Assembly: GCA_015233895.1 (NCBI GenBank)
Contig: JADFXG010000001.1
Coordinates: 248,001-312,000, forward strand
Length of the DNA: 64,000 nt
Source: Nitrospirota bacterium
GTDB taxonomy: Bacteria > Nitrospirota > Thermodesulfovibrionia > Thermodesulfovibrionales > Magnetobacteriaceae
Direction: 5' to 3'
In this document: piece by piece, positions 26,096 to 36,848 of the stretch
How positions within the stretch are numbered: position 1 is the stretch's first letter
How the letters are laid out: every line of letters starts with the position of its first letter
The notes under the pieces: generated by a model
Database searches by the model: none
The model's input: only the letters and a program-made list of their open reading frames with translations
What the model was told of the DNA's origin: nothing
Program-made: the position numbers and the translations under genes

Positions 26096-28702
26096 TTACA
26101 TAGTAAACGAGTAATTACCCTCTAAAAATGCCTTAACGTACCAGTCCTTAGCCTCCATAGTGCTTATCGCCATATCCAACTGTCTGGAACAGCCAAGCAG
26201 ACGGCCAAGCATTTCAAGTTTTTCCTCCGTCTCTTCTTTTGAAGCACCGTTTAGTGTGGCTATTACAAGGTCTCCCTTAATGTCCGCCTTAAAACCAAAT
26301 GCCTCCGTCACTTCTTTAATAAATAACGCTCGCCTGCCTCTTCCGTCCACACCGGCGCCGCCTCCGTTAAAACGGAAATTGATATAGTTGTTGATGTAAC
26401 TCTCTCCGCAAAATGAGTCTATTATTGAATAGTGATACGCTAACTTTACACTTAAATTAATATAACTGTCGGTAATAATGACATATACCTTGCCGCCCTC
26501 CTCAGTGACTCCTGTGCTTACAAAAGAGCGCATCATTACCGAGGCAAGCCCTCCCATATCTATCGCCACAGGACCTGACCAACGCACACCCTCCTGAATC
26601 ATCCCCCGCCACAGTGCCCTAAACGGCATTGAACTTATATGCTCTATAGATAACCTCTTCAAAAACTTAGCTTCATCAATCACTCCGCCGTCAAGATCTA
26701 TAACATAAAACCGCAGCGGTATCCGTGCCGACACAAGCTCCTGAGCGGAACTCCCGCTTTCCGTAAGTTTCCCTATACGAAACATCTCCTTAACCGATAT
26801 TTCATGTACAAATCTGATTATGTCGTGCACAGTGCTGATGTCATCTGCTGAAACATCGGCCTCGCTGATTGTGGCAAGATTAAGATGAGTGATGTTTCGC
26901 ATCGCAGTTTTTATTACCGATGCTGATTGCAGGTATTCATCGGAAACAGCATTTTCCGCTGCAATTGTTGTATTAACCTCTATAGTGCGCCCATCATATA
27001 TACGCCCTGAGTCTGCATCAACTGTTACAGTGTTTACGCCCTTAAGCTTATCTCGAAGGTCTCTTACGTTTATTACCATAGGGATACCGAACTCACGCGC
27101 CACTGTTGCCAGGTGGCTGGTACGGCTGCCGGTCTCTATCACAAGAGCCGAGGCTAAAGACATCAGTCTCACATAATCGTTAGAGGAACTCTTTGCCACA
27201 GCTACTGCCCCTTTAGGAAACTCTGCAATATGATAGAATCTGTCAATGAAGTAAACCGGTCCGGAGGCAACTCCGCGACTGGCTGTCTCCCCCTCTGCTA
27301 TGATAACCTTTTTTGCTGATGCTGCCGCCTGACGGGGAGTTCTTGGATTTGCAGGGGAGAAAACCCTCTTAGCGTGCAGGGAGCGCGCCTGTAAAATTAC
27401 CACCCTGCCCTTTTCATCAATAGCCCACTCTATATCCTGAGGAGTTTCAAAGTGCTTCTCTATTATGCAGCCGAAATCGTACAGAGTTTCGATTTCATCC
27501 TCAGACACAGCAGGACGTTTACGGAAATCCTCGGGAACAGGAACCTCCTTTACGCTACTACTTTCGTCCAACACCAGTTCCACGCTTTTGTTGGTTATGA
27601 TTCTATTGATTATGGTACCGTCCGTTTTACGGTCTAAGATGTACACGTCAGGGGGGATTGTTCCATCCACTGCATACCTGCCCTGTCCCCATATAGAGCT
27701 TAAAATTGCCTCGTCCTTATCGGGGCTGCCAGGATTTAGCGTGTAAAGCACACCGGCTGAGCGGGCATTAACCATCTCAAGGACTAACACCGCCATAGGA
27801 ATGTCTCTGTCCATGATGTTTTTGGCAAGGCGGTAGTAGAGTGCCGTTTTGCCATACTTACTGGCTACGACCTGCTTATACGCATCTGTCAAAGACTCCA
27901 CAGGCACATTCAATATGCTCTTAAACTGCCCTGCAAATGAAGACTTGCCGTCCTCCCCTACTGCGCTTGATCTAACAGAAAACCTCTTATTGTTGCCTAT
28001 CTTTGCTGCCTCACTCAGTATCTGCTCCTCTATCTGCGCAGGCACACTGGAACTCATAATCAATCTCTCTATCTCCTCAGATGCCAAATCAATCTCTTCA
28101 TATGAGTCCATAGAAAGCGGGGCAAGCAGAGATTCGATTTTGCGGTTGAGGCCGTTTACAGACATAAACTCCTTATACCCGGATACCATAATCGAAAAGC
28201 CACGTGGAGTGGGCAGGTTCAATACGTTAAGAAGCTCACCGAGGTTAGCTGCCTTGCCGCCGGTGTCTTTTATATCTTTTGCCGTTACCTTTTCAATTGG
28301 CATAACAAAGTTGCACGCCTGCTGCATGGGTTCATCCTCAAGTATAGCCATGGTGTTTTCCTTAATGTGTTCAAGTACCGAAAAGAGAAACATATAACGG
28401 TCGTCTGTCATATCATTCAAACTCTGTATGAAACTAAAGGACGTGCTAAAGATTCTTGCTAAATATGATTTCAAAGCAAGCACGGTTATTGTTTTATTTT
28501 CTATTTCCTCTTCAATTACTGCAAGGGTGTTTAGAAGCTCGTTGTTTTTTAAAAGAAGGTCCTTATAACTGTAGTATCTGCTCCTGAGTTTATGATAATC
28601 GTCGTCAGGAATAAGAAGCTCATCTGAAAAATCTTTATTATTAACTATACCACCTAAACTCCGAAGCAGCGATCCGGCTTTGCCGATAAGATACCCTATC
28701 AT
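26096..28702 (-). CDS. PEP synthase-like protein lacking the PEP-binding TIM barrel (paralogue 1)
   Basis: A large protein of 868 residues. After a helical N-terminal region (about 1-130) comes a PPDK_N/PpsA-type ATP-grasp domain, with GGKAANLGEL, SVRSSAVGEDGKSSFAGQF and DIEWAIDEKGRVVILQAR. A mobile domain follows, with the phosphohistidine motif GSRTSHLATVAREFGIP (His about 515-520). The last 300 residues do not show the Cys and other signatures of the PEP/pyruvate barrel. They share blocks only with the neighbouring paralogue (VHDIIRFVHE, HISSMPFRALWRGM, INFRFNGG). Known relatives phosphorylate their own His from ATP; the acceptor here is unknown. Its ATG overlaps the stop of the paralogue (28699-28702). 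Confidence 0.85.
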   Translation of the reverse strand: MIGYLIGKAGSLLRSLGGIVNNKDFSDELLIPDDDYHKLRSRYYSYKDLLLKNNELLNTLAVIEEEIENKTITVLALKSYLARIFSTSFSFIQSLNDMTDDRYMFLFSVLEHIKENTMAILEDEPMQQACNFVMPIEKVTAKDIKDTGGKAANLGELLNVLNLPTPRGFSIMVSGYKEFMSVNGLNRKIESLLAPLSMDSYEEIDLASEEIERLIMSSSVPAQIEEQILSEAAKIGNNKRFSVRSSAVGEDGKSSFAGQFKSILNVPVESLTDAYKQVVASKYGKTALYYRLAKNIMDRDIPMAVLVLEMVNARSAGVLYTLNPGSPDKDEAILSSIWGQGRYAVDGTIPPDVYILDRKTDGTIINRIITNKSVELVLDESSSVKEVPVPEDFRKRPAVSEDEIETLYDFGCIIEKHFETPQDIEWAIDEKGRVVILQARSLHAKRVFSPANPRTPRQAAASAKKVIIAEGETASRGVASGPVYFIDRFYHIAEFPKGAVAVAKSSSNDYVRLMSLASALVIETGSRTSHLATVAREFGIPMVINVRDLRDKLKGVNTVTVDADSGRIYDGRTIEVNTTIAAENAVSDEYLQSASVIKTAMRNITHLNLATISEADVSADDISTVHDIIRFVHEISVKEMFRIGKLTESGSSAQELVSARIPLRFYVIDLDGGVIDEAKFLKRLSIEHISSMPFRALWRGMIQEGVRWSGPVAIDMGGLASVMMRSFVSTGVTEEGGKVYVIITDSYINLSVKLAYHYSIIDSFCGESYINNYINFRFNGGGAGVDGRGRRALFIKEVTEAFGFKADIKGDLVIATLNGASKEETEEKLEMLGRLLGCSRQLDMAISTMEAKDWYVKAFLEGNYSFTM

Positions 28703-31254
28703 GCCTGGCTTAGGTGGTATCTCCCATGGAGGAAACTTGTGGAGTAATGCCGTACTAATTGATCGTCACAGACAAGGGTATCAAACTGTTGAATATAGGC
28801 AGTTAATCGTCCTAAGGAATTAAGCAGAAGTTCCATCTCAGGGCGAGAAATGTTATCAGTGCGGGCTATAATAACAGAGCCCTTTATATCAACTCTCATG
28901 TCTAATTCTCTCAATACGGTGGCTATAAGATCTCCTAACTGCGATTTTTTTTGAGTTCCGCCCACAAATCTGAAATAGACATGGCTTTCTTTAATATTTT
29001 CACTACAGTAACTGTCAATCATAGTGAAATTATGCCCAAATTTCAGTGTAAGATTAACGTATTCCTGCGACACTACCGCAACGTTATCTCCGCTGCGGCA
29101 CAAAGCCCCCCTGCCGTACCGTCTTGCAGCAACCGGCACAGCGATTGAATCGGCAGAAGAGTGCCACACACTGGGACACATCATGCCCTCTGCAATCGCC
29201 CTGAAAGGAATAGACGTTATATGCTCAGGCTGTGCCTTACCGTTAACCCCGTTGAGCCCGCCGCCAATATCCACTATACATATTTCCATTGGTATCGGTA
29301 TATCCAGCTTAACGGCGCCGTTGTCGTGTAATATCTCTTTGTAACGGCCTGCATTGGTAAGCTCCTCAACGCCCTTTTCATGAATAAATCTGAGGATGTC
29401 GTGGCATGTCTGACACCCCTCAGATGTGAAGCCACCAGAAAGAGGGTCGGTAAGGTTAAGAGGAGTCATGTATCTCAGTATTTTTTTCAGAATCTTAAAT
29501 TCCCTCTCCTCTGCAAAATTAATATCCTCTGTGATATTATATCTGATAAGCTCCTTTATTGTCCCGTCATACACCTTATTGTCTTCAGCGTCAACGGTAA
29601 TTTCCTGGCCATTTTGCAGCACAGAGGTTGCTGTACCGGTGTTTACAATAGTAGGCACATGAAACTCACGCGCTATGTTTGCCATGTGGCTTGTTGGGGT
29701 GCCAACGTCTGTAATAATAGCGGCAGCCTTTGGCATTATCTTTATAAACTGCGAGGAGTCATGCTTAGCAACAAGTACAGAGCCGCTTTTAAAGTCTCTA
29801 AGGTCCTCCATACGCCTCAAGACAAACACCTTACCAGCCCCAATGCCGCGGCATGAAATTATGCCTTGATTTTCAAAAATTATATTATATTTTTTCAGGG
29901 TTGTATAAATATCCTCATGCCTTTTCAACTGGCTTTCGGATATCTTAAGAGGCCTGGACTGTAGAAACACTAACTCACCACTGCTGCTAACTGACCATTC
30001 AATATCCTGAGGTTTTTTAAAATAATTTTCTATAATGACAGCATGGCGCACAATCGCTTTTATCCTGTCTTCACTGAGACATGGCCTCTGTGAGTCAACC
30101 CCGGATACAGGCACATTTTTTATGCCTCCGCCTTTGTCACAAACTGCCATCACATTTTTTTTGCCGATTTTCCTTTCCAAAATTTTATAAGGCTCATTTT
30201 TTTCAACAATATACACATCGGCATCCACAATGCCGTCTGTGACTGTCGTGCACAGCCCCCGGTTTGCGCTTATAATGACAATATCTTTTTCAATGTTGTC
30301 AGGGTCAGAGGAATATACAACTCCGCTTACGTGGGGCTCTACCATTTTCATACAGCCTACACTCATAGCCGCCATCATGTCACTTTGTGGTGCATGGTGT
30401 TTTTGGTATGCCAGTACCTCTTTAGAATATAAACTTGCTATTACAGTTTTATACGCCTCAGCCAGACTTGCTATCTCAGCAGGCACGTTTAACACTGTGT
30501 TAAACGCTCCGGCAAATGACAATTCTGAGTCCTCCATATCTGCACTGCTCCTTATTGCTACAAAAGTGACCTTGCCGCTACCGCCGCTTAATCTTGTCAG
30601 AGCCGTATCCAGCTCTGCCTCCATATGTGCAGGTAACCTGCCGCTCTTAACCAATTGTTGCGCTTTTTCGAAAAAAGCGTCATCTAAACCATTACTTACA
30701 GATGTATATTCTGCTTTCAGTGATTCTATTTTTTCCTCAAGATGGTTATACTCCATAAACTCTCTGAATGCTCCGGTTGTTATAGCAAAACCATCCGGAA
30801 TGTTAAGATTAAGGTAGTTACCGAGCTCGGCAAGGGCGGCATTTTTCCCTCCTACCGCATCCGACATTTCCCATGTGATGTTTCTGTAAAACAGAACCGT
30901 TTCTCTTAAATCCACCGGCGCCTTATCCTGAAGAATTCTGTTAACCTGGGTATTAATCCTTTCAAACACCCTGTGAAGATATAGGTATTTGTTCTGAGAA
31001 AGAGCGTTTAAGTTGTAGATGGACTGAAACACGGTATCGGAAAACTCGGAATAGGACTTTTTTATATAGTTAATATCAAAGATATAATTACCGCCGAGTT
31101 TGTTTCCCATATCGGACATAATCTCAAGCGCATGGTTGTTGCTGTTTAGCATTTGCCGAAAACGGTTATATACAACCCTCAGGGAGAGTTTCATATCGGA
31201 GGTGGGTTCCTTTCTGGAAAATGCCACCATGATTTTTTTCATAACCTTAGTCAT
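28699..31254 (-). CDS. PEP synthase-like protein lacking the PEP-binding TIM barrel (paralogue 2)
   Basis: An 851-residue protein with the same layout as the gene after it. A helical N-terminus (about 1-130) precedes the ATP-grasp domain, with VGGKNAALAELGNYL, VAIRSSADMEDSELSFAGAF and DIEWSVSSSGELVFLQSRP. The swivelling domain has GTPTSHMANIAREFHVP with the phosphohistidine kept. The C-terminal region of about 290 residues is shared with its neighbour (CHDILRFIHEKGVEEL, HITSIPFRAIAEGM, VYFRFVGG) and not with PEP synthase. It probably does not make PEP. It lies 8 bases after a receiver-domain gene. A start at the fifth codon (ATG) is possible. Confidence 0.85.
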   Translation of the reverse strand: MTKVMKKIMVAFSRKEPTSDMKLSLRVVYNRFRQMLNSNNHALEIMSDMGNKLGGNYIFDINYIKKSYSEFSDTVFQSIYNLNALSQNKYLYLHRVFERINTQVNRILQDKAPVDLRETVLFYRNITWEMSDAVGGKNAALAELGNYLNLNIPDGFAITTGAFREFMEYNHLEEKIESLKAEYTSVSNGLDDAFFEKAQQLVKSGRLPAHMEAELDTALTRLSGGSGKVTFVAIRSSADMEDSELSFAGAFNTVLNVPAEIASLAEAYKTVIASLYSKEVLAYQKHHAPQSDMMAAMSVGCMKMVEPHVSGVVYSSDPDNIEKDIVIISANRGLCTTVTDGIVDADVYIVEKNEPYKILERKIGKKNVMAVCDKGGGIKNVPVSGVDSQRPCLSEDRIKAIVRHAVIIENYFKKPQDIEWSVSSSGELVFLQSRPLKISESQLKRHEDIYTTLKKYNIIFENQGIISCRGIGAGKVFVLRRMEDLRDFKSGSVLVAKHDSSQFIKIMPKAAAIITDVGTPTSHMANIAREFHVPTIVNTGTATSVLQNGQEITVDAEDNKVYDGTIKELIRYNITEDINFAEEREFKILKKILRYMTPLNLTDPLSGGFTSEGCQTCHDILRFIHEKGVEELTNAGRYKEILHDNGAVKLDIPIPMEICIVDIGGGLNGVNGKAQPEHITSIPFRAIAEGMMCPSVWHSSADSIAVPVAARRYGRGALCRSGDNVAVVSQEYVNLTLKFGHNFTMIDSYCSENIKESHVYFRFVGGTQKKSQLGDLIATVLRELDMRVDIKGSVIIARTDNISRPEMELLLNSLGRLTAYIQQFDTLVCDDQLVRHYSTSFLHGRYHLSQA

Positions 31255-31262
31255 TTGGTTTA

Positions 31263-31682
31263 TTACCTGCCTAATGCAGCCACAGCCGCATTTTTTGATT
31301 CGTTTAGTTCCCTTTCTGCCCTGCCGATAACCTGTTTAATTGTGTCAATCTCAACGGGTTTTGAAAGAACATCAAACACTCCTTTTCTAAAAGCCTCTCT
31401 GACCATTTCAGTCTCGGCAAAACCTGTGAGAATAATGACTTTAGATGCAGGGTTCTTTTCCTTTGCCGATACAAGAACTTTCATCCCATCCATGCCATCC
31501 ATCCTAAAGTCAGTCAGTATGATGTCATAATGCTTATTGTTTAACTCCTCCACAGCATGTGCACCATCACCAAACACTGCGACCTCAAACCCTGCCTTTT
31601 CCATAATCTGTTTAAGGCGCTTACAGACGATGCTCTCATCGTCTATGACCATAAGGCGGCATTTATCCTCTTGTCTGCCCAT
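31263..31682 (-). CDS. Stand-alone response regulator receiver protein
   Basis: A single receiver (CheY-like) domain of 139 residues with a short C-terminal tail and no output domain. The acidic pair (VIDDES), phospho-acceptor Asp58 (ILTDFRMDGMDG), the conserved Thr (ILTGFAE) and Lys (LSKPVEID) are all present, so it should be phosphorylatable. It starts 2 bases after the TauE/SafE gene and runs into the PEP-synthase-like genes, so it probably controls this operon's products by protein contact. Its cognate kinase is unknown; the NarL-type kinase transcribed divergently is one candidate. Confidence 0.92.
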   Translation of the reverse strand: MGRQEDKCRLMVIDDESIVCKRLKQIMEKAGFEVAVFGDGAHAVEELNNKHYDIILTDFRMDGMDGMKVLVSAKEKNPASKVIILTGFAETEMVREAFRKGVFDVLSKPVEIDTIKQVIGRAERELNESKNAAVAALGR

Positions 31683-31684
31683 AT

Positions 31685-32773
31685 TTATTCCACGCTCGCT
31701 GAGTAACTGACCTCAACTATACCTTTTTCCCTTACTTTTGCCCTGAATGTCCAAAAGAGGATTAGAAATGTGGCGATAAGTCCGCTTCCAAAGAGAAAAA
31801 TCTTGCTTCCCATCTCAAGTGCGGAAACTGTAGAGGCATCGAGGTTTATCCAATTTAAATTTTTGCAGTTGACAGGCATTGCAAGCAGCCGTGATACGAC
31901 ACATAAAAGTATAAGCACTGCCGTAACCAACCTGATGTAGAGTTCTTTTACCACTTTTGTAGCCACTGCTCCAAAATATATTCCCGGTAAAGAACCAGCA
32001 TACAGCAAAAGCACCAGTCTTAAATCCACATACCCACTGAGGGCATAGTTAAAGGTACCCCATCCTCCCGTAAACACGGCAAGAAAGAGCTCCGTGCCTG
32101 CTGCCAATGCCGTTGGCACACCAAACAGATAAATCATAGCCGGGACGCCAATAAACCCTCCCACACCTATTGTTCCTGCCATATAACCAGTAGCTAAACC
32201 CACAACAAGGATAGAATACAGGGAGATATCCACATTGGCTACTTTAAAGTGTATCATAGGTTTAAATTGAAATTTTCTGGATATTTTCAAAAACTTATCC
32301 GATGGCCCGCTGCCAGGTTGTCTCGTTGACCTCAGAGCGTCCTTTAGCATAAACGTGCCGATTATACTAAGCACGACAACAAAGAAGGTACTAACATAAA
32401 GGTCTGAGCCGTCTTTTCCCATTTTAACAAAAAAGAACTTGTTTACAAAAACCGCAAGGCTTATTCCTAATGAGGCAGTAATGAGCAGGAAAATCCCCAG
32501 CTTTTTATCAACATTACCCAGTTCACTATGCTTTTTAGAGCCCATCATTGCCTTTCCAAACTTATGGGCAATATTGCTGGCAACTGCGATAACGCCAGGT
32601 ACGCCTAAATTCATCATTCCCGGGGTCATTAAAAAAGCCCCGCCTGAGCCAATAAACCCTGAAATTGTCCCGCCAATAAAGCCAAGCACAACCAAACCCA
32701 GCATGTACCACGGATGAGCACCTAAAATCTGTGTCAGCATACCCGCTCTTTCGATTATATGTGGATCTATCAT
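31685..32773 (-). CDS. TauE/SafE family sulfite/organosulfur exporter-like permease
   Basis: A polytopic inner-membrane protein of 362 residues of the TauE/SafE (DUF81) family, whose members export sulfite, sulfoacetate or other anions. The two Gly-rich repeats of the family are visible (GFIGGTISGFIGSGGAFLMTPGMM and, in the second half, TIGVGGFIGVPAMIYLFGVPTALAAGTELF). Roughly eight hydrophobic helices and a central cytoplasmic loop are seen. A GGAGGAG ribosome site precedes the ATG. No sulfur metabolism gene is adjacent, so the substrate is not set by context. Confidence 0.88.
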   Translation of the reverse strand: MIDPHIIERAGMLTQILGAHPWYMLGLVVLGFIGGTISGFIGSGGAFLMTPGMMNLGVPGVIAVASNIAHKFGKAMMGSKKHSELGNVDKKLGIFLLITASLGISLAVFVNKFFFVKMGKDGSDLYVSTFFVVVLSIIGTFMLKDALRSTRQPGSGPSDKFLKISRKFQFKPMIHFKVANVDISLYSILVVGLATGYMAGTIGVGGFIGVPAMIYLFGVPTALAAGTELFLAVFTGGWGTFNYALSGYVDLRLVLLLYAGSLPGIYFGAVATKVVKELYIRLVTAVLILLCVVSRLLAMPVNCKNLNWINLDASTVSALEMGSKIFLFGSGLIATFLILFWTFRAKVREKGIVEVSYSASVE

Positions 32774-32813
32774 TTAAAAACTCCTCCTGTTACGGTGTAT
32801 ATAAAGCCCGTAT

Positions 32814-33440
32814 TTATTTTTCAAGGTTAAACATCTTTGGCAGGATATGAACAGTGTTTCCCCATACCCAGGCATGAACAACCACTATAGCCAGTACGGC
32901 AACAGCCCCTGGGACACTCATAGTCATAAATAACCTTATGTTAAGTGTCTCAATCCTTGGATAAAGTACACCGTACATCACCATCGAACACAGTGCATAG
33001 ACAACAAACATGCCCCAGTTAACGCTACCGTGTTTATCCGCTTTAGCGTGGGCTACGTTTAGCGAGCGGGCAGTTGTAACCGGACAGGACAGTGCTTCTT
33101 TTAGTGTCTTTAAAGTCACTCCGGTGTTTTTTAGCGCATCTGAAAAAACGGTGTCACCTGCCAGTACAAGACTTGCCGGCATCAGTGCCTTAACTTTGTC
33201 TATAAACACCTCCGACTCCACACTTACAACATAGGAGTTGAAACTTATCCCATCCTGTGCAAATCTCTCTTTGACTGAATTAAGTTGTCTTTCCAGCTTG
33301 TTTAATTGCGTTCTGTCCCCGGTCCGGGTTGGTAATATGCCGATTATTGCGGTATCAGCAGCTTTTGATGCTTTTATTGCGTATTGCAGCACGGGGGAAT
33401 TTATATCCCAACTGTCGTCAATTACTAAAATCTTTTTCAA
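32814..33440 (-). CDS. UspA-like domain protein with two C-terminal membrane helices
   Basis: A 208-residue protein. Residues 1 to about 135 resemble a universal-stress-protein fold (MKKILVIDDSWDINSPVLQY; SLVLAGDTVFSDALKN), but the Gly-rich ATP-binding loop is not obvious. Two hydrophobic helices follow (about 145-165 and 172-195) and would anchor it to the membrane. The start is a TTG with a GGAGG ribosome site 6-7 bases upstream. It is placed between the cytidylate-kinase-like and TauE/SafE genes in the same operon, so it may sense a metabolite or partner for the transporter. That role is inference. Confidence 0.75.
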   Translation of the reverse strand: MKKILVIDDSWDINSPVLQYAIKASKAADTAIIGILPTRTGDRTQLNKLERQLNSVKERFAQDGISFNSYVVSVESEVFIDKVKALMPASLVLAGDTVFSDALKNTGVTLKTLKEALSCPVTTARSLNVAHAKADKHGSVNWGMFVVYALCSMVMYGVLYPRIETLNIRLFMTMSVPGAVAVLAIVVVHAWVWGNTVHILPKMFNLEK

Positions 33441-33477
33441 GCCTTACCTCCTTTTTTTATAAAGCCAACACATTTGA

Positions 33478-34302
33478 TTACCTAATCATACTGGAAGCAT
33501 ACTGTGCGAATACATCCTCGGTTACGGTAATTTCAACTCTGTGTATGCCGGGTATTTCTGCTATCGCTGTATTTATATCGTTAACCCGCTTTTTGTACTC
33601 TGCTTCAGCTGCCTTAGTGTGAATATACAATATGCCATTTGACCGAACATCTATCTCGTGGTCTATATTAATGAGTGCGGCCTTAACACGACTGGCCAGT
33701 TCGATGTTTTTAAGACAGTGTACAGAATAGTTTGACGCCTTATACTTTGGCAGGAGTGCTTCATCAGATATCAGGGATACTACGCTTTCCGTATCTGATT
33801 CCTTAAGTTCAACCACCAAATCGTAGACAGACTGATCGCTTTCATTGATTTTATATAGAAGACTATTCACTTTATGGCGATTCCTGTCCAGTTTAAGCAG
33901 TTTTTTTGCGGCTTCATTTTCCGTGATGTTTTCAACTGTTTGCATTCGTTGCACTCTTATAGCAGTGTCGGCATGAATTCGTACTTTCAGCACGTGTGCC
34001 ACTGCTCGGATAAGTGCCTCCCCTGCCGGCCCGTAATACACGATATTGTCCTTAAGAAAATACTTAGCCAAAGCCGACTGTAAATACGCTGCGAGTTTTA
34101 CCCGTTTAATAAGTGACATTCCCAAAAAAGAAGGGGCATTTTCCACAGCCTCTCTGAGCTCACTCTCTGATAAGTTGAACTGCTCCGAGGCTAATGTAAT
34201 TATCTCACTGCCCAAACACTTATATCCCATCTGGAGGGCAACACCCTCTGCTATTTTCCTGCTCATACCGTAAGCCGCACCGCTTATAGTTATTACAGAC
34301 AT
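33478..34302 (-). CDS. Cytidylate kinase-like protein with BON-like C-terminal domain
   Basis: A 274-residue protein, the first gene of the minus-strand operon. The N-terminal 190 residues resemble the Cytidylate_kin2 family. The P-loop region reads ISGAAYGMSRKIAE, lacking the usual GKG/GKS lysine arrangement, so nucleotide phosphorylation is doubtful. The C-terminal 80 residues (ELASRVKAALINIDHEIDVR; ILYIHTKA; IPGIHRVEITV) look like a BON domain, which binds phospholipid or other ligands. The ATG at 34302 has an AGGAGG site 6 bases upstream and is preferred over the TTG at 34308. Confidence 0.75.
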   Translation of the reverse strand: MSVITISGAAYGMSRKIAEGVALQMGYKCLGSEIITLASEQFNLSESELREAVENAPSFLGMSLIKRVKLAAYLQSALAKYFLKDNIVYYGPAGEALIRAVAHVLKVRIHADTAIRVQRMQTVENITENEAAKKLLKLDRNRHKVNSLLYKINESDQSVYDLVVELKESDTESVVSLISDEALLPKYKASNYSVHCLKNIELASRVKAALINIDHEIDVRSNGILYIHTKAAEAEYKKRVNDINTAIAEIPGIHRVEITVTEDVFAQYASSMIR

Positions 34303-34388
34303 TTCCAACCTCCTTTAGCGCTTCTGAAACACGGCATCTTTAGAGCGCTTTTCAGTAAATATTCTCTCTGCATTAACGGCCCTACTTA

Positions 34389-34546
34389 TACCGAGTTGCA
34401 ATCTAAACTATAATTTAAAGAGGAGATTACGACGTCGCTACGCTCCTCGTAATGACAGATAGGGAAGCTCATGTACAAGCCTCACGCCGTCATTGCGAAC
34501 CCCCGCAGGGTGTGTGGCAATCTCCTCTTTTGAGCGCAACTTGGTA
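34389..34546. repeat. MITE-like inverted-repeat element between divergent operons
   Basis: The stretch 34309-34731 carries no gene. It holds an element whose outer ends are TACCGAGTTGC (34389-34399) and the inverse of TACCAAGTTGC (34536-34546). Longer inner arms (34417-34455 and 34490-34530) share AAAGAGGAGATT and end in GTAATGAC/GTCATTGC. Related copies lie at 57948-58256, with one end alone at 45483-45520. No coding capacity is seen, so it would need a transposase in trans. Confidence 0.65.
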
Positions 34547-34663: not shown

Positions 34664-34678
34664 TAGGTAAATTACCTA
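34664..34678. promoter_or_regulatory. Palindromic candidate operator upstream of the NarL-type kinase gene
   Basis: TAGGTAA-A-TTACCTA is a perfect 7-bp inverted repeat around one base, about 55 bases upstream of the kinase start. A related half-site pair (CCTA...TAGG) overlaps it at 34653-34667. NarL/FixJ-type regulators bind short inverted repeats of this size, so the adjacent response regulator may control its own operon here. No -10/-35 pair was fixed. Confidence 0.35.
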
Positions 34679-34731
34679 TGGCTATTTGCCCGTATAAGCG
34701 TTATAATTTACATCGTGGAGGGCTTTTTGTA

Positions 34732-36207
34732 GTGGAACAGATATATTTTGCACATGATTTAGACGTAATTTATTTTGTCTATGGCCTGTCATTTTTTATA
34801 ATGGGCTATGGCATCTTAACCCAAAGTAAATCAAACAGCATCTTTAAAATCAGTGGAATTATCTGGCTTTTGGGCGTATTTGGAGTACTGCACGGTATTA
34901 ATGAGTGGCTTGACATGTGGGTTGTTATTAAGGGCAGGTCTCAACTGATTGATTACGCAAGATGGGGGTTTCTTATCGTTTCCTACTGTTTCCTGCTGGA
35001 TTTTGGATTAAGAATGTGTATGCGAAACATAAAACCTGAATTCAATCGTAAGTATTCATTAGACATCTGGTTAGTATTAGTTGTTTTACTTGTGATAGCG
35101 GTAATTTCACTTCAATCGGACAACTTTTTAACTACTTCAAATATTCTGTCAAGGTACTTTATGGGGCTAACTGGTTCAGTTCTTACCGGGGCTGGATTTA
35201 TCATATATTATCACACTGAGGATGAGAAAATAAAAGGTGCAACCTATATGAAGTACAAGTTTTGGGTATTGGCACTGTCTTTCCTTGTCTATGGCATACT
35301 GTGCGGGTTAATTGTCCCCAAAGGCAGTTTTTTCCCTGCAAGTGTTTTGAATGTCGTGTGGTTTCATTCGGTAACGAACCTTCCTGTGCGGTTTATCAGA
35401 GGGATTTTTATAGCTATATCGGCATTAAATATCGGCAACATTCTTTCCACTTTTCAACGGGAAACTAACTACCAACTGCAAGAGGCACTTGCTTACAGAA
35501 AGACTATCGAAGATGAACTGATAAAATCACAGGAACAACTCCGCTCTTTTGCAATCCGCCTCCAGTCACTGATTGAAAAAGAAAGGACCAGAATTGCCAG
35601 AGAACTCCATGACGAAATAAGCCAGTCCCTTACGTCGTTAAAGATAGACATAGACGAACTGCTTGTCCCTGATGTTTCAGGTGATAATTCTCTGATGATT
35701 TCCCAAATTCTTGACATCGAGAAATCAATTGATTCCGTAATTGACCGTATGCACGACATAGCAACAGACCTGCGCCCAAGTATTTTAGACCAGCTCGGCC
35801 TTCTTGCAGCCATAGACTGGCAGGCAAAAAAGTTTACGCAACGCACGGGGATTAAGTGCGATGTCAGATACAACAGTAACATCACATCTTCACTTGGCAG
35901 CTTTGGCGCTGAATCCTCTACGGCACTCTTTCGTATATACCAGGAGGCGCTTACAAACGTATGCCGCCACGCAAATGCAAATAAAGTTACCGTGTTCATG
36001 TATAATAATGATAACGGGCTTGTTGTAAAAGTAGTTGACGATGGTGTTGGAATAGAACGGCAAAAGGTATTTGACCATAATTCCCTTGGACTTATGGGAA
36101 TGAGAGAGCGTGTAGCTTTGTTTGGATGGCAAATGGAGATTAAAGGAAAAACAAATAAGGGAACGGTTGTAAAGCTGCTTATTCCCGAGGGCTCAATTGG
36201 GCAATGA
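34732..36207 (+). CDS. Membrane sensor histidine kinase, NarL-partner (HisKA_3) type
   Basis: A 491-residue kinase. About seven hydrophobic helices (residues 10-245) form a membrane sensor with no periplasmic domain. A coiled coil follows (about 250-285), then the dimerisation/phosphorylation helix RIARELHDEISQSL with His293 as the likely acceptor, and an HATPase domain with EALTNVCRHA, VVDDGVG and GLMGMRERV. I chose the GTG at 34732, which has a GGAGGG site 9 bases upstream (34717-34722). The open frame reaches an ATG at 34678 with no ribosome site. The stop overlaps the response regulator start (36204-36207). Confidence 0.92.
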   Translation: MEQIYFAHDLDVIYFVYGLSFFIMGYGILTQSKSNSIFKISGIIWLLGVFGVLHGINEWLDMWVVIKGRSQLIDYARWGFLIVSYCFLLDFGLRMCMRNIKPEFNRKYSLDIWLVLVVLLVIAVISLQSDNFLTTSNILSRYFMGLTGSVLTGAGFIIYYHTEDEKIKGATYMKYKFWVLALSFLVYGILCGLIVPKGSFFPASVLNVVWFHSVTNLPVRFIRGIFIAISALNIGNILSTFQRETNYQLQEALAYRKTIEDELIKSQEQLRSFAIRLQSLIEKERTRIARELHDEISQSLTSLKIDIDELLVPDVSGDNSLMISQILDIEKSIDSVIDRMHDIATDLRPSILDQLGLLAAIDWQAKKFTQRTGIKCDVRYNSNITSSLGSFGAESSTALFRIYQEALTNVCRHANANKVTVFMYNNDNGLVVKVVDDGVGIERQKVFDHNSLGLMGMRERVALFGWQMEIKGKTNKGTVVKLLIPEGSIGQ

Positions 36208-36848
36208 TAAATATTCTGTTAGTTGACGACCATCCTATTGTAAGAGAGGGAATTATAAAGATTCTTCACAGACAGCCAACCATAGAGACAATTATAGAGG
36301 CCAAAACCTCAAAAGAGGCGATCGCACAATTAAAGAAATTCCAATTCAGTATCGTAATTTTGGATATTTCTTTGCCCGACAAGAGTGGCCTTCTGACACT
36401 GGAGCAGATAAAACATGACTATCCCGGCCTGCCGGTTCTCATGCTCAGTATGTACCCGGAGGAGGAGTATGCGATACAATCGCTAAAGCTGGGGGCCTCG
36501 GGCTATTTGACCAAAAAAGCGATGCCGGAGGAACTGCTTAAGGCTATAAAGAAAATCGCATCCGGCGGCAAATATATAACTGCAACTCTTGCTGAAAAAC
36601 TTGCATACGAACTTGACAGCAAAACCGATAAGCCTCTGCATAAATACTTAACCAACAGAGAATTCCACGTAATGGGCATGATAGTATCAGGGAAAACTCC
36701 AAGGGAGATTGCACAGCTGCTGTCATTAAGTGTAAGAACTATCAACACCTACAGGGGCAATATTCTTGAAAAACTTCAGTTAAAAAATAATGCCGAACTG
36801 GTACGTTACGCAATCGAAAATAAACTGTCCGACACGTATCAGGCATGA
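36204..36848 (+). CDS. NarL/FixJ family response regulator
   Basis: A 214-residue transcription factor. An N-terminal receiver domain has the acidic residues in LLVDDHP, the phospho-acceptor Asp54 (ILDISLPD) and the Lys in LTKKAMP. The C-terminal LuxR-type helix-turn-helix (LTNREFHVMGMIVSGKTPRE through VRTINTYRGNILEKL) binds DNA. Overlap with the kinase stop (ATGA) shows translational coupling, so the pair forms a two-component system. Its targets are unknown. The divergent PEP-synthase-like/TauE operon and its own promoter are candidates. Confidence 0.93.
   Translation: MINILLVDDHPIVREGIIKILHRQPTIETIIEAKTSKEAIAQLKKFQFSIVILDISLPDKSGLLTLEQIKHDYPGLPVLMLSMYPEEEYAIQSLKLGASGYLTKKAMPEELLKAIKKIASGGKYITATLAEKLAYELDSKTDKPLHKYLTNREFHVMGMIVSGKTPREIAQLLSLSVRTINTYRGNILEKLQLKNNAELVRYAIENKLSDTYQA

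Follow-up and report, generated by a model that had tools for sequence, protein, structure and literature searches.

Two PEP synthase relatives with a replaced barrel in a six-gene Nitrospirota operon that may control a TauE-type permease

Among described systems, the nitrate cluster of Desulfovibrio vulgaris and D. alaskensis (DVU0251-DVU0245 and Dde_0597-Dde_0605; Korte et al. 2014, PMC4001038) encodes a DUF169 protein, a TauE permease, a hypothetical protein, PtxB, a histidine kinase, a receiver, a pyruvate phosphate dikinase (PPDK)-like protein and a dual-specificity phosphatase. Growth became indifferent to 100 mM nitrate when DVU0246 (PPDK-like), DVU0247 (receiver), DVU0250 or DVU0251 (TauE) was interrupted; the mutants were single transposon insertions, none of them complemented, and for DVU0250 pooled and isolated results disagree (PMC4001038). 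Korte et al. suggested a leaky thiosulfate transporter (PMC4001038), a view repeated in a later paper (PMC9723548). Because each disruption led to nitrate resistance, these data suggest that the permease, the receiver and the PEP synthase (PpsA)-like protein are all needed for permease-dependent anion entry. A second D. vulgaris system, the molybdate-responsive DVU0539-DVU0545, has a histidine kinase/regulator pair divergent from a Usp operon that also encodes a putative sulfate-exporter-family transporter and a membrane-helix protein (PMC10102598).

Our analysis concerned a 64,000-nucleotide stretch of the genome of a sulfur-metabolising Nitrospirota bacterium (hereafter the window), in which ORF calling recovered six tightly spaced genes on the minus strand at 26096-34302. 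From 5' to 3' they encode a cytidylate-kinase-like protein (33478..34302), a Usp-like protein with C-terminal hydrophobic (membrane) segments (Usp-TM; 32814..33440), a TauE/SafE permease (31685..32773), a stand-alone receiver (31263..31682) and two PpsA-like paralogues, P2 (851 aa; 28699..31254) and P1 (868 aa; 26096..28702). The intergenic gaps from the kinase-like gene to P1 are 37, 40, 2, 8 and -4 bp, which bears out the packing described in an earlier note made from the DNA letters, where gaps of at most about 45 bases had been given. The kinase-like ORF starts at an in-frame ATG with a TTG two codons upstream at 34308, and a leuA-type gene is convergent with P1 at a distance of 14 bp. As in the nitrate cluster, a TauE permease, a stand-alone receiver and a PpsA-like protein occur in one cluster; unlike it, the window operon has no PtxB-like protein, dual-specificity phosphatase or in-operon histidine kinase, and carries two PpsA-like genes as well as the kinase-like and Usp-TM genes. 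The DVU0539-DVU0545 system differs in that PpsA-like and kinase-like genes are not reported there (PMC10102598).

P1 and P2 are 31% identical across 845 residues, and their Pfam matches are confined to PPDK_N (PF01326; E 3.3e-83 and 7.2e-72, respectively) and PEP-utilizers (PF00391; 6.1e-19 and 9.7e-20). In P1 these correspond to an ATP-grasp domain at residues 147-444 (27371..28264, minus strand) and a phosphohistidine swivel domain at residues 495-566 (27005..27220, minus strand). Both domains are PpsA features, and the motifs VRSS/IRSS, SFAG, DIEW, QAR/QSR and TSH were all seen, the last being T528-S-H530 in P1 and T521-S-H523 in P2 and aligning with the TCH His motif of PpsA. The retention of ATP-grasp and phosphohistidine residues proposed earlier was therefore upheld for both proteins by Pfam and by motif inspection. 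Domain order and motifs equal those of PpsA and PPDK, in contrast to the remainder of the polypeptides, where the PEP/pyruvate barrel is gone and an extra N-terminal helical domain and a new C-terminal domain (CTD) are present. The helical domain (~110-130 aa), which lies outside the PpsA match and had been missed previously, is common to 130 of 137 family members.

The PEP/pyruvate barrel PF02896 gave no match in P1 or P2 at E<1, canonical NCBIfam PpsA models end at profile position 464-476 of 784-798, and P2 aligns to the PpsA structure 2ols over residues 120-559 only. For the paralogues the NCBIfam PEP synthase models give 342/331 and 321/312 bits against cut-offs of 598/739.75. Profiles, PDB sequences and a structural model (below) ruled out a complete or a degenerate barrel, and P1 and P2 are not PpsA by membership, the barrel being absent. 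That they are nonetheless ordinary PEP synthases with diverged barrels and unrelated neighbours is highly improbable: PEP synthase supplies the best family names, but the barrel is missing by profile, PDB sequence and fold, an enzyme that has the complete barrel is encoded separately in the same genome (G000:C1:160018-161067), and the gene association described below goes far beyond chance. P1 and P2 probably do work with the first half-reaction of PpsA. A third CTD-bearing PpsA-like protein in this genome (L039 8565-11090, G000:C9) has TGH in place of TSH and lies near another TauE gene (L039 5525-6715) and near two-component genes that include a receiver.

The CTD occupies residues 575-868 of P1 (26099..26980, minus strand; alignment A3 and model), where it replaces the barrel, and residues 565-851 of P2 (28702..29562, minus strand; alignments A1 and A3), so that the last ~290 residues are common to both proteins. 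Neither CTD has a convincing match in Pfam, NCBIfam or PDB sequences, 101 diverse copies gave zero Pfam or NCBIfam model matches (PF02896 included), and a CTD profile found nothing convincing in the PDB. An AlphaFold2 model from the 101 sequences (pLDDT 86.2, pTM 0.76) predicts helices followed by runs of neighbouring strands, with none of the beta/alpha alternation of a barrel. Foldseek returned no match to it at E<=0.001 in the PDB or in BFVD (viral models); as candidates for a known fold, weak PDB matches to 2plg, 4h5b and C-Ala domains were set aside with TM <0.25 on the query. The claim that the paralogues share C-terminal blocks distinct from the TIM barrel is thus borne out by profiles and by the non-barrel model, structure prediction and HMM search having found no complete PEP-utilizing barrel there.

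The CTD carries the motif HDxxRFxHE, in which His626, Asp627, Arg630, His633 and Glu634 of P1 are invariant in 101/101 sequences (alignment A3). These five residues fall along a single predicted helix at helix-like intervals, a pattern suggestive of one functional face. In a collection of species-level genomes, one scan found at least 562 confirmed CTD stretches, the best 80 of which come from records labelled Nitrospirota, Thermodesulfobacteriota, Myxococcota, Acidobacteriota, Zixibacteria, Latescibacterota and others; the CTD occurs in 41/59 Desulfovibrionaceae genomes, in up to nine copies. The phosphohistidine is retained in nearly all scorable members and the ATP-grasp motifs are kept. 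The CTD is a large undescribed family spanning several phyla, and no paper naming it or the six-gene set was found among the open-access papers searched. A class of ~1060 aa proteins (L045, L046, L047, L048 and about 20 others) has ~210 extra C-terminal residues, with weak lectin-like Pfam matches (PF21708, PF06439) in the two proteins scanned, and mostly has no TauE gene nearby.

The studied enzymes with an ATP-grasp/His pair phosphorylate small molecules, rifampin phosphotransferase acting on rifampin, and TauE-family members have been described as sulfite and sulfonate exporters. P1 and P2 could by the same token be small-molecule dikinases that phosphorylate, through the His, a metabolite held on the CTD, with TauE exporting or importing that metabolite or a relative of it in catabolism or detoxification. 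NCBIfam matches of both proteins do include rifamycin phosphotransferase and prodigiosin ligase, and CTD conservation resembles that of a putative binding site; the rifampin phosphotransferase model NF041857 gave 194.6 and 185.9 bits, far under its cut-off of 999. Rifampin phosphotransferase and prodigiosin ligase PigC resemble P1 and P2 in having the ATP-grasp and His modules together with a replacement for the acceptor domain. In rifampin phosphotransferase this replacement reportedly lies between the two modules; in P1 and P2 the new domain comes after the His domain, and neither its sequence nor its fold showed a relation. Against a dikinase role, the recurring receiver and histidine kinases, the pairing of the paralogues and the degenerate partners, which are non-catalytic, look regulatory, and contexts vary between CTD clades. 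We consider it possible, but the less probable explanation.

The gene neighbourhood of the CTD was surveyed around 132 unique proteins, of which 52 have TauE within 10 kb, 53 a stand-alone receiver within 3 kb and 13 a cytidylate-kinase-like gene within 10 kb. Outside six-gene loci TauE lies within 10 kb in 33/104 CTD loci, and 37 TauE genes were observed in 1.62 Mb around these proteins where about 3.2 were expected, given the density of some 427 TauE genes across about 213 Mb of Nitrospirota relatives; an exact P value means little here, because that density is Nitrospirota-derived while many loci belong to other phyla, the loci are akin and the best 80 favour P1-like copies. What counts is the contrast with true PEP/pyruvate-barrel enzymes of related genomes, where TauE was found near 0/20 loci (383 kb). 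Barrel-swapped PpsA relatives beside a TauE-type permease are thus an arrangement present in several phyla, and other genomes conserve the association of the genes. Within the examined sequence TauE is absent from about two thirds of the CTD loci, many of them shortened by contig ends, and for that reason the CTD protein may also act without an adjacent permease. Two further settings recurred in the survey. A trio (L057 5248-9869, L151, L153, L154, L166) comprises a TauE of ~420-470 aa, a ~237-260 aa protein for which Pfam scans, where made, gave nothing significant, and a PpsA-like protein with the CTD; other CTD clusters, in relatives (L054 13222-18810, L053, L044), hold MshEN and DUF202 membrane proteins, true Usp and Alph_Pro_TM near the receiver and TauE genes.

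Phylogenetic analysis placed P2 and P1 in two separate, well-supported clades. P2 and P1 genes lie side by side in Nitrospirota, Desulfobacteraceae (L066), Abyssobacteria (L070), Desulfofervidaceae (L126) and one Desulfovibrionaceae genome (L168), and the two form an old tandem pair. In a Latescibacterota locus (L089 5907-7730) the gene upstream of a full P1-type gene encodes a 608 aa protein in which the ATP-grasp is gone and AGD replaces TSH, and a 368 aa partner (L067 19627-20730) consists only of the N-terminal and a divergent C-terminal part, with ATP-grasp and phosphohistidine gone. Both degenerate partners keep the gene position of the pair; their loss of ATP-grasp and His suggests complexes with one regulatory partner.

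The other operon products were also characterized. The receiver (PF00072, 4.8e-28) retains its phospho-acceptor Asp58 and switch residues (alignment A2). TauE belongs to its family with 124.9 bits against a cut-off of 32.6 (PF01925, 5.3e-36) and is 66-84% identical among related loci (alignment A5). Usp-TM (208 aa; alignment A4) has no Pfam match, to the Usp family PF00582 or any other; its profile matched true Usp proteins only weakly, in L044 and L060, and its family was found in none of 149 Desulfovibrionaceae genomes. The kinase-like protein matches Cytidylate_kin2 (PF13189, 1.1e-27), and its phosphate-binding loop is degenerate in an alignment with Acidobacterial copies, so it may be a pseudokinase; Pfam found no BON domain, contrary to the earlier assignment. 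In L067 and L089 the kinase-like and Usp-TM proteins form one polypeptide, followed by TauE (hmmsearch 3.6e-4 and 1.7e-6, hhalign 96%), and because of this fusion their products probably cooperate at the membrane.

TauE, receiver and CTD PpsA-like protein occur together in the window operon and in a Desulfovibrionaceae locus (L156). The latter has the order DUF169-TauE-240 aa protein-PtxB-histidine kinase-receiver-CTD protein-phosphatase, the same as the nitrate cluster, and by this match DVU0246 and Dde_0604 may carry the CTD; the annotated length of DVU0246 is 744 aa, which falls about 80 short of its relatives in this analysis. In L156 one strand holds the TauE, receiver and PpsA-like genes, with TauE upstream of the receiver and PpsA-like pair. 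If the D. vulgaris layout is the same, insertions in the latter two would be non-polar on TauE, and both proteins would be needed for permease function. A role in transport control is well supported by analogy with the genetics of this related cluster, and to that extent the earlier suggestion of a signalling or transport-control system fits published data; its further element, another operon product as phosphoryl acceptor, is possible, and the evidence also allows for a small molecule that the CTD binds as substrate.

The reading that we prefer, at a probability of about 0.5, is that the operon encodes an ATP-fed phosphohistidine system controlling a TauE-type oxyanion permease. In it P1 and P2, which probably form a heteromer, would move a phosphoryl group from ATP onto His530 and His523 in the manner of PpsA, and from there, instead of to pyruvate, to an acceptor that the CTD binds or forms, the HDxxRFxHE helix face being the likely acceptor site. 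The outcome of this transfer would be needed for the permease to work, switching it on or driving it, with a relay that probably runs through the membrane-anchored Usp-TM/kinase-like pair, and the stand-alone receiver may gate P1 and P2. A sulfur oxyanion, for instance thiosulfate or sulfite, is likely to be what the permease carries, and the presence of dsrA in the window genome is consistent with this; as a discriminating correlate dsrA was dropped, nearly all relatives carrying it.

Alternatively, P1, P2 and the receiver may act on expression by signalling to a regulator, for which a divergent histidine kinase/LuxR pair is one candidate; the permease phenotype would then reflect lost transcription. 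Pfam identified such a pair, absent from the earlier note, beginning ~370 bp upstream of the operon (histidine kinase, 34678-36207; LuxR-type response regulator, 36204-36848; both plus strand). It also flanks the operon in three relatives (L041, L042, L043), four genomes in all, and is likely to exert transcriptional control of the operon; a D. vulgaris kinase/regulator pair controls the divergent Usp-transporter operon in DVU0539-0545 (PMC10102598), and a role in permease-gene transcription would account for the mutants equally well. The receiver, however, stands alone without an output domain and the operon itself has no histidine kinase, and we regard this alternative as unlikely. Control of the permease by phosphotransfer might extend to a separate phosphohistidine regulator class, in which paired PpsA-derived ATP:protein phosphotransferases, equipped with a new acceptor domain, and a receiver switch or energise TauE permeases. 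This broader proposal is tentative; if true, it would amount to PTS-like control of anion transport powered by ATP rather than PEP.

The CTD family is tied to the sole phenotype known for a related cluster, the entry of nitrate into sulfate reducers, which is relevant to souring control, and it offers a direct test of the effect of the PpsA-like and receiver genes on the permease, the question remaining from the 2014 nitrate study. PEP synthase annotations of CTD genes in sulfate reducers are likely wrong, as the family is matched by PEP synthase models and has no PEP site.

Upstream of the operon, a sigma-70 promoter scan scored no better than shuffles. The intergenic region that separates the operon from the divergent histidine kinase contains, at 34417-34531, an inverted repeat (GAGGAGATTAC...GCAATCTCCTC, with GTCATTGCGAA) that folds better than shuffles (z -2.45) and whose 11-mer occurs three times in the window; it looks like a small mobile repeat.
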